Shown one piece after another: positions 17,024 to 21,637 of a stretch of 64,000 nt of DNA (positions are counted from its first letter, which is position 1; every line of letters starts with the position of its first letter). The stretch is taken from NCBI RefSeq assembly GCF_021049285.1, contig NZ_CP088017.1:682001-746000 (forward strand), read 5' to 3'. This stretch comes from Ruania halotolerans. Its GTDB lineage: Bacteria > Actinomycetota > Actinomycetes > Actinomycetales > Beutenbergiaceae. The position numbers and the translations under genes are program-made. The notes under the pieces were generated by a model that worked only from the letters and a program-made list of their open reading frames with translations, had not been told where the DNA came from and made no database searches.

Positions 17024-17152
17024 TACGGATGCGCCTCCATCCAGAGGTGGACCGGTGCACCTCCACCCAAAGGTGGATCCGGGTCCGGACTCCGGATGGC
17101 CGCCGCTGCGCCGTTCGCCCGCCGCCGGTGTGCTGGACCAGCGATCAGGTGT

Positions 17153-17618: not shown

Positions 17619-18239
17619 GTGGTCCGACCCGCTCGCCCCGAAGTCCGCCGTCAGCTGATCGAGCGAGCCGCAGGGATGCTCGCTCGCCGGGAGAAGATCA
17701 GCCTGCGCAGCCTGGTCGCTGGGCTGGGGGTATCGACCATGGCCGTCTACACCTATTTCGACGGGATGTCAGGACTGCTTGGCGCCGTGCGTCAGGAGGG
17801 CTTTACTCGACTTGCCGATCGCCTCGCGGAACTGTCTCCGACCGATGACGCCGTCAGTGACCTAGCTGCCGCCGGAGCCGCGTATCTGGAGTCGGCCAAA
17901 GGCAGCCCCGATCTCTATGCGCTGATGTTCGACGGTTCGCTGCCGTTGCCGGACCGCAGAGCGGCCGATGCCACTCTTGCTTATCTCGTTGGCGCAGCTC
18001 AACGAGCCATTGAATCTCAACGTTTCGAACGCACCACCGATGCCCGATCGCTGGCGAACGAACTGTGGCTGTTCGGCCATGGCGCCTGCATGCTTCTCGT
18101 GACCGGCGTGCTGTCCTTCGAGCGGATCGAGCCCATCGTGACCACAGGACTGGTACACCTCTATCGAGCCGCCGGAGACGAACCTGAGATGGCCGAACGC
18201 TCCATGCTCAACGGGTGGTCACGTGGGGCTTCGCGGTGA
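17619..18239 (+). CDS. TetR family transcriptional regulator
   Basis: 206 residues from GTG 17619, with no Shine-Dalgarno site and a possible -10 element just upstream, suggesting leaderless translation. The helix-turn-helix region reads KISLRSLVAGLGVSTMAVYTYFDGMSGLLGAV. The C-terminal half resembles the WHG-type TetR_C domain (ELWLFGHGACMLLVTGVLSFE). It diverges from the RidA gene and probably represses both genes through the operator at 17590-17612. Confidence 0.9.
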   Translation: MVRPARPEVRRQLIERAAGMLARREKISLRSLVAGLGVSTMAVYTYFDGMSGLLGAVRQEGFTRLADRLAELSPTDDAVSDLAAAGAAYLESAKGSPDLYALMFDGSLPLPDRRAADATLAYLVGAAQRAIESQRFERTTDARSLANELWLFGHGACMLLVTGVLSFERIEPIVTTGLVHLYRAAGDEPEMAERSMLNGWSRGASR

Positions 18240-18411
18240 CATGCGACGGTGGTCTCGAGGTCGGCGAGGTCGCTCCTTGGCGCGCGCAACTAGGTCAGGG
18301 CGGTGTGGCGGAGCTTTTGGAAGCGGAAGGAGCCGCGGCCGGCCGCGGTGGCTTGGGGAGTGAAGCGCGCCATCGCGCCCCGGGGGGCGTGCGTCTCGAC
18401 GCGCTCGCGCA

Positions 18412-18756
18412 GGCGGAGGATGGGGGAGCCGCATGTCCTCGCTCCGCTGCGGCATGCTCCCGAATCCACAGTGTCCGAGAGGCGCAGAAGCCCCCAACCG
18501 AAATGCGTGGCTGAGGGCTTCTGCGTCTGGCGGAGGATGGGGGAGCCGTCGTCGCTCGTCCCTCGCTCCTCCTCCCGAATCCCACAGCGTCCAATACGGG
18601 TCAGAGCCCCAGCCGAAATGCATGGCTGGGGCTCTGACACGTGGCGGAGGATGGGGGAGCCGTCGTCGCTCGTCCCTCGCTCCTCCTCCCGAATCCCACA
18701 GCGTCCAATACGGGTCAGAGCCCCAGCCGAAATGCATGGCTGGGGCTCTGACACGT
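18412..18756 (-). repeat. three tandem 114-117-bp units carrying the tRNA-Ser 3' end
   Basis: Units start at 18412 (117 bp), 18529 (114 bp) and 18643 (114 bp). The last two are identical to each other and abut the tRNA-Ser gene. Read in the tRNA direction, each unit holds a copy of the last 17 nt of the tRNA including CCA (TCCCCCATCCTCCGCCA; the oldest unit lacks the final A), then a hairpin and a spacer. The hairpin arms are 14 bp and perfect in the two younger units (for example 18601-18614 with 18624-18637). In the oldest unit the stem has changed on both sides (CGCAGAAGCCC with GGGCTTCTGCG), while the loop GAAATGCRT is kept. The remaining stretch 18240-18411 shows only a 16-bp GC palindrome (18333-18348) and no gene. 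Confidence 0.9.
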
Positions 18757-18843
18757 GGCGGAGGATGGGGGATTCGAACCCCCGAGGGCTTGCACCCAAC
18801 ACGCTTTCCAAGCGTGCGCCATAGGCCACTAGGCGAATCCTCC
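18756..18843 (-). tRNA. tRNA-Ser(GGA), CCA encoded
   Basis: On the minus strand the 5' end GGAGGAT (18843 downwards) pairs with ATCCTCC before a G discriminator. The T arm holds GGTTCGAATCC, a long variable arm typical of class II tRNAs is present, and the anticodon loop CTTGGAAAG gives anticodon GGA. CCA (18758-18756) is encoded in the gene. It is transcribed towards the repeat array, so the primary transcript probably reads into those units. Confidence 0.95.
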
Positions 18844-18941
18844 AGGCGTCGTCCAGGGTAGCGGCTCGGGAGTGGCCAGGCGAACTCGCTGGCTGTGACG
18901 ACGCCGACACCTCCCCGTGCCGGGCACTCGAAGGTGAGCGG

Positions 18942-19044
18942 TACAGTGGTCTCAGACCCCTCGTGTGGCGTCATCTCGCTGAACTCCCCCAGGGCCGGAA
19001 GGCAGCAAGGGCAGGCGGGCTCTGGCGGGTGCGCGAGGGGTCCT
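18942..19044 (+). ncRNA. ffs: signal recognition particle 4.5S-type RNA, with possible promoter
   Basis: The conserved SRP apical motif CAGGGCCGGAAGGCAGCAAG (18990-19009) is present. The outer stem GACCCCTCG (18955-18963) pairs with CGAGGGGTC (19034-19042), giving a small RNA of about 90 nt, usual for actinobacteria. TACAGT at 18942-18947 is a plausible -10, placing the start near 18954. The RNA forms the Ffh ribonucleoprotein for membrane protein targeting. Its place between tRNA-Ser and dnaX is common in this phylum. Confidence 0.93.
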
Positions 19045-19105
19045 TTCATGTCCGGACATGGATCCTCTGGGCACGATGTCGGTGCGGGCGCCTATTGTGA
19101 GTCGG

Positions 19106-21637
19106 GTGAGCACTGCGTTGTACCGCCGCTACCGGCCCGAGACGTTCGCCGACGTGATCGGTCAGGAGCACGTCACCACGCCATTGATGGCCGCGCTTGA
19201 GAACGATCGGATCACGCACGCCTACCTCTTCTCCGGCCCCCGCGGGTGCGGGAAGACCACCTCGGCACGGATCCTCGCGCGGTGCCTGAACTGCGCCGAA
19301 GGCCCCACCTCAACCCCGTGCGGCCGGTGTGACAGTTGCACCGAACTCGCCCGCGGCGGGCCCGGTTCACTCGATGTGGTGGAAATGGACGCGGCGTCTC
19401 ACGGTGGCGTGGACGACGCCCGCGAGCTGCGCGAACGAGCGGCCTTCGCTCCGGCGCGCGATCGTTACAAGGTGTTCATCATTGATGAGGCGCACATGGT
19501 CACCCCGCAGGGCTTCAACGCCCTGCTCAAGCTGGTGGAGGAACCTCCAGCGCACGTGAAGTTCGTCTTCGCCACCACGGAACCGGAGAAGGTGATCGGG
19601 ACGATCCGCTCCCGCACGCACCACTATCCGTTCCGCCTGGTCCCACCAGACCAGCTCACCGGCTACCTGGAGACCCTCGCCACGGCCGAGCAGGTCACCG
19701 TGGATTCGGGAGTGCTACCGCTTGTTGTCCGTGCTGGGGGCGGGTCGGTGCGTGATTCGCTCTCCGTGCTCGATCAGCTCATCGCGGGGGCGTCCGACGG
19801 CGCAGTCGGCTATGAGCGTGCCGTCGCCCTGCTGGGGTTCACCCACGCGACGCTCCTTGACGACACCGTGGACGCTCTGGCCGCCCGAGATGGCGGCAGC
19901 TTGTTCCGGGTGGTGGACCGCGTGATCGGTACAGGCCATTCGCCCCGCCGGTTCGTTGAGGACCTGTTGGAGCGACTCCGCGACCTCATCGTGGTGCGCG
20001 CGGCCGGCGAGAACGCTCAGACAGTGCTGCGCGCGGTACCCATGGACCAACTCGAGCGGATGCGGACCCAGGCCGCGCACCTCGGTGAGCACACCCTTTC
20101 GCGGAGCGCGGACCTGGTGAACGAGGCGCTGACGGAAATGTCCGGAGCCACCTCACCTCGACTCCAGCTCGAACTGCTCTGTGCTCGCCTGTTGCTCCCC
20201 GCAGCCGACGACGCCGCGGAAGGTTTCGGGGCACGGCTGGATCGCCTCGAAAGCGCCGTGACCGGCACCGCACAGGCTGCGCCGCGCTCGGCTGCGCCAG
20301 CGCCGCCGGCGCAGCGCCCAGACGCCGCGACCGAACCCGCCTCGCCGCCAGCACCCGCTGAAGCAACCTCAGCGCCAGCACCCGCCGAAGCAACCTCAGC
20401 GCCAGCACCCGCTGAAGCAGCACCGGTACCCGCTGAAGCGGCTCCAGCCACAGCAGCCCCCGAACCAATGCCAGCCGCAGCTGAATCGAGCCCGCCTAGC
20501 GCATCGTCGCCGGACGTCGCTGCCGATCACGTGCCCATGCCCGAGCATGAGGTCGGACGAGAGGCGCCTGAGGATCCCCTCTCGCCGGCGCCGCCCACGG
20601 CGCACGTACCCGAGCCGCAGCCGAATCCGGAGGCGCAGACCAGTGCAGACATGACCGCCGATCAGGTGCGGCGACGTTGGCCCGAAGTGCTGGAAACGCT
20701 CGCACGGGTCAAACGGACCACCTGGGCGCTCATCTCCCAGGACGCCCAGGTCGTCGACGTTACGGCCTCCTCGCTCACGCTCGGATTCTCGACCTCCGGC
20801 CTTGCCTCGACGTTCCGCAACGGCCCGCACTCCGACTTCCTCGCCCGCGCCCTTCAGGAAACTCTGGGGCTGACCGTCCGGATCGAGCCGACCGTGGTTG
20901 ACGGATCTGCCACCAGTACCGCCCCGGCATCGTCGGCCCGGCCTGTCGCGCCTCCTGCCGCATCTGCGGACTGGGGCGCACCGGGAGGGTCGCCATCACG
21001 CGCGGCACAGCCGCCGAAGGAGCCGACGGCGCGACCATCGACGCCTCCACAGGGCACGAGTGGGCCCCCGTGGGATGAGCCCGGGCCCGATACTTCCGAG
21101 GCGGACGACGCCTCTGATGCGGAGGGTGACCCAGCGGGTGATCCGGTCGCCGCTGCCTCCGTTGCACTCCCTGACTCTGCACAGCCTGACTCTGCACAGC
21201 CCAGCGCGGACTGGAAAACCGCCCGCCCTGCCGCTGGACGCGAGCCGATCCCGCCGACGCCGCAGCCGGAGGACGACTGGCCCGAGCTGCCGCCGGATCC
21301 GGCCGCGGGACGTGACGACGTCCCCCTGGCCGAACCGCCGGAGGACCCCTACGCCCCCAGTGGCTCAGCCACTGCAACCTCGCCCGGGGCCTCCGCTCGC
21401 GAGCAGGCGTTCGAGGCCGCACGGCAGGCGACCACCTCTGCCCCCAGACCAGACACGGCAGGTGAGATGCCGCCGGCCACGGATGGGCCGCCGTCGGCGT
21501 TCGACGAGGACGTCCCAGATCCGGACGACCCCGATATCGAATCGACCGGGCTGGTGGGAGCACCGCTGGTGGCCCGCCTGCTGGGGGGAACTGTGATCGA
21601 CGAGATCGTCGAACATCCCGACGGGAGTGAGCAATGA
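19106..21637 (+). CDS. dnaX: DNA polymerase III subunit gamma/tau
   Basis: 843 residues if translation starts at GTG 19106 ([20 protein letters not shown], the usual start of actinobacterial DnaX); an ATG at 19058 is an alternative. It is the clamp-loader ATPase: Walker [10 protein letters not shown], zinc-binding cysteines (CLNC...CGRCDSC), Walker B IIDEAHM and sensor I ATTEPEK, all within the first ~370 residues. A long Ala/Pro/Glu-rich linker contains 9-residue repeats (20347-20427) and PDSAQ repeats. A tau-like folded segment (about 530-610) precedes more low-complexity sequence. It overlaps recR by four bases. Confidence 0.96.
20347..20427 (+). repeat. three 27-bp direct repeats inside dnaX
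   Basis: Units begin at 20347, 20374 and 20401 and encode the nonapeptide APAPAEATS with small changes. They lie in the disordered linker of DnaX, and their number probably varies by slippage without affecting the ATPase core. Confidence 0.8.

Follow-up and report, generated by a model that had tools for sequence, protein, structure and literature searches.

The window, a stretch of 64,000 nucleotides from Ruania halotolerans, contains a tRNA-Ser(GGA) gene on the minus strand at 18756..18843 (ARAGORN; Rfam tRNA, 53.4 bits), which is followed on its 3′ side by three tandem units on the same strand. Three tail copies, TCCCCCATCCTCCGCCA, lie behind the tRNA at spacings of 114, 114, and 117 bp, and the units end in TCCCCCATCCTCCGCC followed by A (T in unit 3), which is the 3′ end of the host from T60 in standard numbering (18756-18772 in the tRNA itself). 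Unit 1 (18642..18755, body and tail copy, 114 bp) was delimited by sequence comparison and TRF and is identical to unit 2 (18528..18641, 114 bp) with 0 mismatches, whereas unit 3 (18411..18527, 117 bp) has diverged and shares 93 of 125 aligned columns with unit 1. The tail copies occupy 18642..18658 (host T60-A76), 18528..18544, and 18411..18427, and TRF describes the array with a period of 114, 3.1 copies, and a score of 510. An earlier sequence-only reading had described such units built with the tRNA-Ser(GGA) 3′ end, each carrying its last 17 nt, with identical tRNA-proximal units and a diverged distal one whose tail copy lacks the final A; the tail copies and lengths were verified, and the start of the array moves by one base from 18412 to 18411.

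An SRP RNA is located at 18952-19048 on the opposite strand to the array, next to an 859-aa frame at 19058-21637, which we take to be dnaX (assigned without a family search). A simple scan of 18350-18960 found no T-run terminator, which weakens the earlier suggestion that the units act as serial terminators. Elsewhere in the window, a 26-bp repeat is present in two tandem copies at 17030-17082, and the Rfam miRNA matches fall far under their cut-offs and were taken as chance.

Each body has an ordered internal structure. Hairpin 1 of unit 1 (18714..18752, minus strand), identified by folding and alignment, stands directly 3′ of the tRNA with 15 pairs and is followed by GGATTCG (18690..18696), which is complementary to host T-loop bases 56-62, and by a core (18656..18689) of the form GGAG-GA-hairpin 2-GA-CGGC-TCC. 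Hairpin 1 of unit 3 (18485..18523; folding and alignment) still forms 15 pairs (G-T in two cases) despite changes in either arm, in agreement with the paired changes noted earlier for the distal unit, while the hairpin 2 in its core (18425..18460) is a different one and has no GA step ahead of CGGC. The RNA folding z-scores of units 1 and 3 are -3.76 and -2.97, with 0 of 200 shuffles as good in either case. Among 13 units, 9 of the 12 consensus pairs of hairpin 1 show two-sided changes (17 pairs in the whole structure), so that pairing is preserved while the sequence varies. The T-loop complement, the second structured stretch, and a family extending beyond the tRNA-Ser(GGA) locus were absent from that reading.

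The earlier reading would have been undermined by relatives lacking the unit, but a search of eight Ruania genomes (G000-G007) with the tRNA and unit 1 as the query found units at tRNA-Ser(GGA) and elsewhere. At tRNA-Ser(GGA), three units are present in G000 and in G003, two in G006, and one each in G005 and G001; among the eight genomes searched, the tRNA-Ser(GGA) genes of G002 and G007 have no unit, and the G004 contig stops within the tRNA. The same query also matched at tRNA-Ala(CGC) in three genomes and at tRNA-Ser(GCT) in one. A covariance model built from 13 units found hosts including Ser(CGA), Ser(GCT), Ala(CGC), Ala(GGC), Pro(TGG), Pro(CGG), Pro(GGG), and Arg(CCG), as well as a Gly(CCC) unit in another genus of the family, some of these at E > 0.01 and judged by eye; at E 0.01, the model matches in 11 of 24 family genomes. 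Two model matches (G006:131647 and G001:2027870) look like chance. Behind what appears by eye to be the tmRNA 3′ end in two genomes (G000:2983802 and G003:1494362; L076 and L078), there is a structure of the hairpin 1 type without the core.

Tail copies were also sought independently of the unit, by looking for the own 13-nt tail of each tRNA in the next 450 nt of the window's own genome. The 44 testable tRNAs of 45 (Phe was left out for lack of a T-loop match) include six, namely Ser(CGA), Ser(GGA), Ala(CGC), Pro(TGG), Arg(TCT), and Leu(TAG), whose tail recurs between +50 and +109 with 12 or all 13 nt matching. The same tails occur in 10 of 1,892 combinations with the flanks of other tRNAs, a control in which some isoacceptors have common tails, and the tail copies are therefore not a product of chance. 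The units at Arg(TCT) (L247) and Leu(TAG) (L250) are a variant in which the inverted piece (GGCAGG and AGCGGG, respectively) fits the T-stem rather than the T-loop, and the minimal hairpin is GCGCAGC.

The core extends over much of the phylum. A scan of species genomes with the pattern GGATTYGGGAGGAG-N2..30-GACGGYTCC matched at least 120 loci. The first 80 among the matches listed (L090-L169) are nearly all Actinomycetota by title and hold 89 core copies, 73 of which follow a tRNA with a recognizable T-loop at a distance of no more than 300 nt; the 40 loci examined afterwards from the same scan (L170-L209, again among the matches listed) hold 43 copies, 37 with a host. These host counts leave out 22 of the 132 core copies in the 120 listed loci (16 and 6 in the two sets), which have no tRNA within 300 nt or no T-loop match, some of them standing behind a partial tRNA. 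Serine tRNAs make up 58 of the 110 hosts among the matches listed, followed by Met (19), Pro (14), Thr (7), Ala (6), Leu (4), and Arg (2). A slightly longer exact core pattern occurs at 13 places in 6 of 396 phylum-wide genomes, one of them that of the window, so few genomes carry the exact form, though it is widely scattered; the reversed pattern has no match in the 396, and all 19 core copies in the loci from this set (overlaps counted) stand behind a tRNA. A core in a Bacteroidia MAG (L126), with no tRNA in the locus, was treated as chance. At L131, L137, L125, and L104, units stand behind partial tRNA 3′ ends, which are perhaps right edges of integrated islands, and at L118:1540-2242 two copies of tail, terminator, and unit flank about 0.6 kb with an apparent small frame in a cassette-like arrangement.

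The units lie downstream of a tRNA, in its orientation, and share one plan. Hairpin 1 comes first, then GGATTYG, then hairpin 2 flanked by GGAG and CGGY, and each unit closes with the host 3′ end copied from T60 onward; both the inverted piece and the tail are matched to the particular host. GGATTYG is the complement of host bases 56-62 (CRAATCC). The search pattern fixes it except for Y, as well as the first TCC of the tail, and these fixed positions are no test; Y itself fits host R57 in all 73 copies of the first 80 loci (56 A-T and 17 G-C) and in 36 of 37 copies of the next 40 (the exception being one A with C), or 109 of 110 copies overall among the matches listed. The Ser(GGA) tRNAs of L102 and L118, with the same anticodon and a different base 57, both obey this rule. 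Complementarity to the host fades past base 63. In the first 80 loci, tail identity is at least 0.96 at each of positions 1 to 9 counted from T60. The pattern fixes three of these, at the start, and the six non-fixed ones fall to 0.26-0.69 when hosts are shuffled; in the next 40 loci, the first 9 nt of the tail are identical to the host in 34 of 37 copies. The end of the tail copy, at the CCA site, is the least conserved part, with identities of 0.66, 0.52, and 0.49 at positions 15-17. Comparison by eye of the Pro(TGG) core of G005 with a G006 unit bearing a Ser(CGA) tail found four differing bases, three of which track the host T-stem.

Hairpin 2 varies greatly in sequence. Of its 59 distinct sequences, 44 can be resolved completely into base pairs and tandem GA steps (mean of 7.0 and maximum of 9 when shuffled), 11 of the 44 with a tandem GA step, and 15 fail to parse; for those of at least 13 nt, 37 of 51 parse (shuffled mean 0.8, maximum 5). 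The hairpin 2 of units 1 and 2 may be parsed as G, GA, GC, GA, G, a GGA loop, and back, giving four pairs and two tandem GA steps in unit 1. In the minimum-energy fold of unit 1 alone, this stretch pairs instead with the tail and the parsed hairpin does not form. The rule GA-hairpin-GA-N4-TCC-tail fits the sequence of units 1 and 2 and finds no fit in unit 3. The hairpin 2 pairs comprise 234 Watson-Crick, 4 G-T, 2 A-C, and 19 other combinations; as G-T and A-C are both rare, hairpin 2 is silent on the strand and on whether RNA or DNA is the selected form, and selection at the DNA level is possible judging from these sequences. The triloops of 53 distinct hairpins include GCA (5), GTA (3), and GAA (1), all of which are very stable in single-stranded DNA. 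When tRNA and unit are folded together, the tail copy pairs with the 5′ strand of the acceptor in 49 of 66 minimum-energy folds and GGATTYG with the T-loop in 31 of 66 (counts without a shuffled-host control), and these modeled folds are only suggestive of pairing between unit and tRNA.

A similar plan is found in E. coli, where the rtT repeat of K-12 contains GGGGAAGGAT (the complement of host positions ~59-68), a GA-rich hairpin stretch, and then ATCCTTCCCCCACCACCA, and related units lie behind tRNA-Pro, tRNA-Lys, and tRNA-Arg. The Lys and Arg unit tails match their hosts at 14 of 14 positions, and the inverted piece, compared by eye, shows a complete fit to the Tyr, Pro, and Arg hosts and a five-base fit to Lys. 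The rule GA-hairpin-GA-N4-TCC, which was derived from the actinobacterial units, has nine matches across five E. coli loci (13,586 positions), of which eight fall on a full tail copy and the ninth, at Lys, is cut by the locus end; in 80 actinobacterial loci, true units included, it matches at 68 of 1,101,684 positions. The unit in the tyrT-tyrV spacer violates the N4 spacing. Rfam assigns RtT to the Tyr, Pro, and one Lys unit of E. coli and leaves out the Arg units. Of 5,426 E. coli genomes, 5,211 match the inner part of the Pro unit, at a median of six places, few of which were examined. Among the seven strains compared at proK, the number of complete units is 0, 1, or 2, a count of 0 standing for a truncated unit; at this locus (L262-L266), the truncated form continues into REP-like sequence.

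We tentatively prefer, with slightly less than even confidence, the reading in which the array represents three copies of an actinobacterial RtT-like tRNA-trailer unit that acts at the RNA level and provides a second tRNA-like 3′ end. The tRNA transcript would continue through the unit as its 3′ trailer, and the tail copy would present a second 3′ end to be cut or trimmed by tRNA 3′-processing enzymes, releasing a small RNA. In the read-through transcript, the T-loop complement and tail may pair with the T-arm and acceptor strand of the tRNA and compete with its normal fold, and array size would shift by recombination between identical tails. A small RNA or decoy role, as had been proposed earlier, may also apply to the Ruania units. 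The K-12 rttR annotation runs from the 8th base past the tRNA through the last A of the tail copy. This endpoint suggests to us that the tail copy undergoes tRNA-like 3′ processing, but the poorly conserved CCA positions of actinobacterial tails argue against a strict need for a CCA end.

Several observations count against the trailer-RNA reading, including the fold of unit 1 without the parsed hairpin 2, the weakly conserved CCA end, the missing GA step of unit 3 together with the spacing break at tyrT-tyrV, the 15 unparsed hairpin 2 sequences, the mixed outcome of the folds of tRNA with unit, the slight RNA-strand bias of hairpin 2, and the patchy presence of units (none at Ser(GGA) in G002 and G007; exact core in 6 of 396 genomes). 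Two RtT RNAs gave Northern signals in Actinobacillus and are described there as lying upstream of tRNA genes (PMC4986893), and this location also counts against a trailer.

The main rival, on balance unlikely, is a miniature mobile DNA hairpin without an enzyme of its own, which would insert behind a tRNA 3′ end and duplicate the 17-bp tail, with GGATTYG recognizing the near-universal T-loop. Movement between tRNAs is suggested by the bodies themselves, as the most similar of 347 between-genome Ruania pairs (0.979) joins Ser(CGA) in G005 to Ser(GCT) in G003 and exceeds every same-tRNA pair, the second most similar pair (0.958) being at the same tRNA. In this comparison hosts were labeled by the nearest tRNA, and one unit so labeled as Ser(GCT) (G006:398961) has a Ser(CGA) tail. 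Moreover, among the matches listed, seven hairpin 2 sequences of at least 16 nt recur identically at different tRNAs; a 19-nt hairpin 2 is shared by Ser(GGA) in Ruania and Ala(CGC) in Pedococcus (L116), and a 28-nt one by two contigs of one MAG. The GCA, GTA, and GAA triloops, with their stability in single-stranded DNA, would also suit such an element. On the other hand, no mobilizing gene was found in any of the places searched. The Y1 (TnpA_REP) transposase PF01797 is absent from all eight Ruania genomes (the control was positive in 5 of 14), the reverse transcriptase RVT_1 is present in 3 of 8 and absent from G000 and G005, the core has 0 matches in viral contigs with two patterns (the second a guessed E. 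coli form), and inspection by eye of the 25 largest ORF clusters beside units revealed no evident recombinase. A common neighbor gene was sought in the same clusters and rejected, one cluster being tadA-like and several being shadow frames. Plain insertion also leaves unexplained why GGATTYG varies with the host, and the sole candidate empty site, Ser(CGA) of G007 compared with that of G003, is not empty, having an IS-like stretch between the tRNA and a degenerate unit. This stretch of about 0.5 kb begins with an IS481-type end and is followed by a second tail copy of about 15 nt.

A transposase does occur beside tRNA tails in Ruania, in the form of an IS481-family frame of 403 aa (L055:177-1388), and is in keeping with a mobile hairpin. 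In Ruania, Terrabacter, and Rarobacter, tRNA or unit tails are followed immediately by the end sequence TGTGATGTCTCGCGACATC or a similar one, with such ends in the flanks of L048, L074, L084, L131, and L137, the transposase having been checked at L055 alone. The IS481-family element seems to target tRNA 3′ ends and resembles the unit in that its end sequence stands directly behind the tRNA. It differs in that its right end lacks the CGGY-TCC core, so the unit is not simply its deletion form, and in that the L055 copy has a transposase frame. The tRNA in L055 is Ser(GCT) and the tail joined to it that of Ser(CGA), a mixture which indicates that L055 is not a simple insertion. The units likewise resemble REP/RAYT systems as short palindromic repeats dispersed in the genome without a gene of their own, and differ from them in being tied to tRNA 3′ ends with host-matched ends and in the absence of Y1 from the eight genomes of the genus.

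Functionless slippage or unequal crossing-over of a terminator region has a small probability in our estimate and is refuted as a full account. The identity of units 1 and 2, the variable number of complete units at E. coli proK, and a 175-bp rtT length difference entered in an insertion/deletion table for Salmonella (PMC2658671), are all as expected from such a process, which accounts for copy number and not for the same body elsewhere, the host-matched ends, or the phylum-wide core. A slim chance is left for the disfavored idea that integrative elements, inserting at the tRNA 3′ end and being lost again time after time, left attachment-site copies in tandem. The tail copies do resemble att repeats, and some units lie behind a partial tRNA that is perhaps an island right edge (L131, L137, and L125), but in these cases the entire unit remains with the tRNA remnant. 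The conserved body, the host-tracking T-loop complement, and hairpin 2 are no features of att sites, and the searches of viral contigs and of neighboring ORF clusters, as above, yielded neither the core nor an evident recombinase. RNA-templated copying, in which reverse transcription from the tRNA 3′ end stops at methylated A58 to give 17-nt tails, is hardly credible, for although the tails begin at T60, just past position 58, and their length fits and has a parallel in retroviral primers, RVT_1 is present in only 3 of 8 Ruania genomes and absent from that of the window, and the GGATTYG piece spans position 58. None of the explanations, our preferred trailer reading included, fully covers the host-matched ends at different tRNAs.

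In the literature, a tandem GA motif has been found by covariation in RtT RNA (PMC7657543), an RtT sRNA is among the upregulated RNAs of a Thioalkalivibrio cold-response study (PMC8092127), and rttR is among sRNAs listed as containing REP (PMC12306157). The actinobacterial form of the unit is not named in the titles or abstract openings of the open-licence literature searched. RtT has an Rfam entry and an uncertain role, and relatives in another phylum supply covariation data for it. The rule of a fit to host base 57, a tail from T60, and GA-hairpin-GA-N4 allows a test of action via the tRNA T-arm, and one body at different tRNAs with matched ends raises the question of how short bacterial repeats spread and are rewritten. 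More speculatively, and rather improbably in our estimate, RtT may be one branch of bacteria-wide tiny RNA/DNA hairpin cassettes that colonize tRNA genes, rewrite both ends for each host by copying, and refold with or compete for the host T-arm.

Among known systems, the closest comparison is with the RtT RNA of E. coli (RF00391; the rttR/tyrT repeats). The actinobacterial units differ in inner sequence and length (114-117 bp compared with 178 bp), their inverted piece covers the T-loop (56-62) rather than the T-stem (~59-68), and the Rfam model misses them. RF00391 gave no match at E 1 in window positions 18200-19100, none at cut-off in 10 unit-bearing loci, and none over the Rfam gathering cut-off in 24 family genomes, where the E. 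coli control was positive; three weak matches in family genomes (E 0.23-0.99) were treated as chance. These misses count against assignment to the RtT kind. On the other hand, the array shares two traits with RtT, as it is placed downstream of a tRNA, in the orientation of that gene, and its units end with the host tRNA 3′ end, in tandem as in E. coli. The likeness to rtT pointed out by the sequence-only reading holds in greater depth than the shared tail, since both have a host T-arm complement, a stretch that reads by sequence (here in units 1 and 2) as GA-hairpin-GA, four bases, and the host tail, and in both, related bodies occur at several tRNAs with host-matched tails and varying copy number. 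This common plan speaks for one kind and makes an independent actinobacterial case, as first proposed, doubtful, with common descent unproven. By sequence, the array thus appears to be a real new variant of the RtT kind, while by Rfam's model it is not a formal member.
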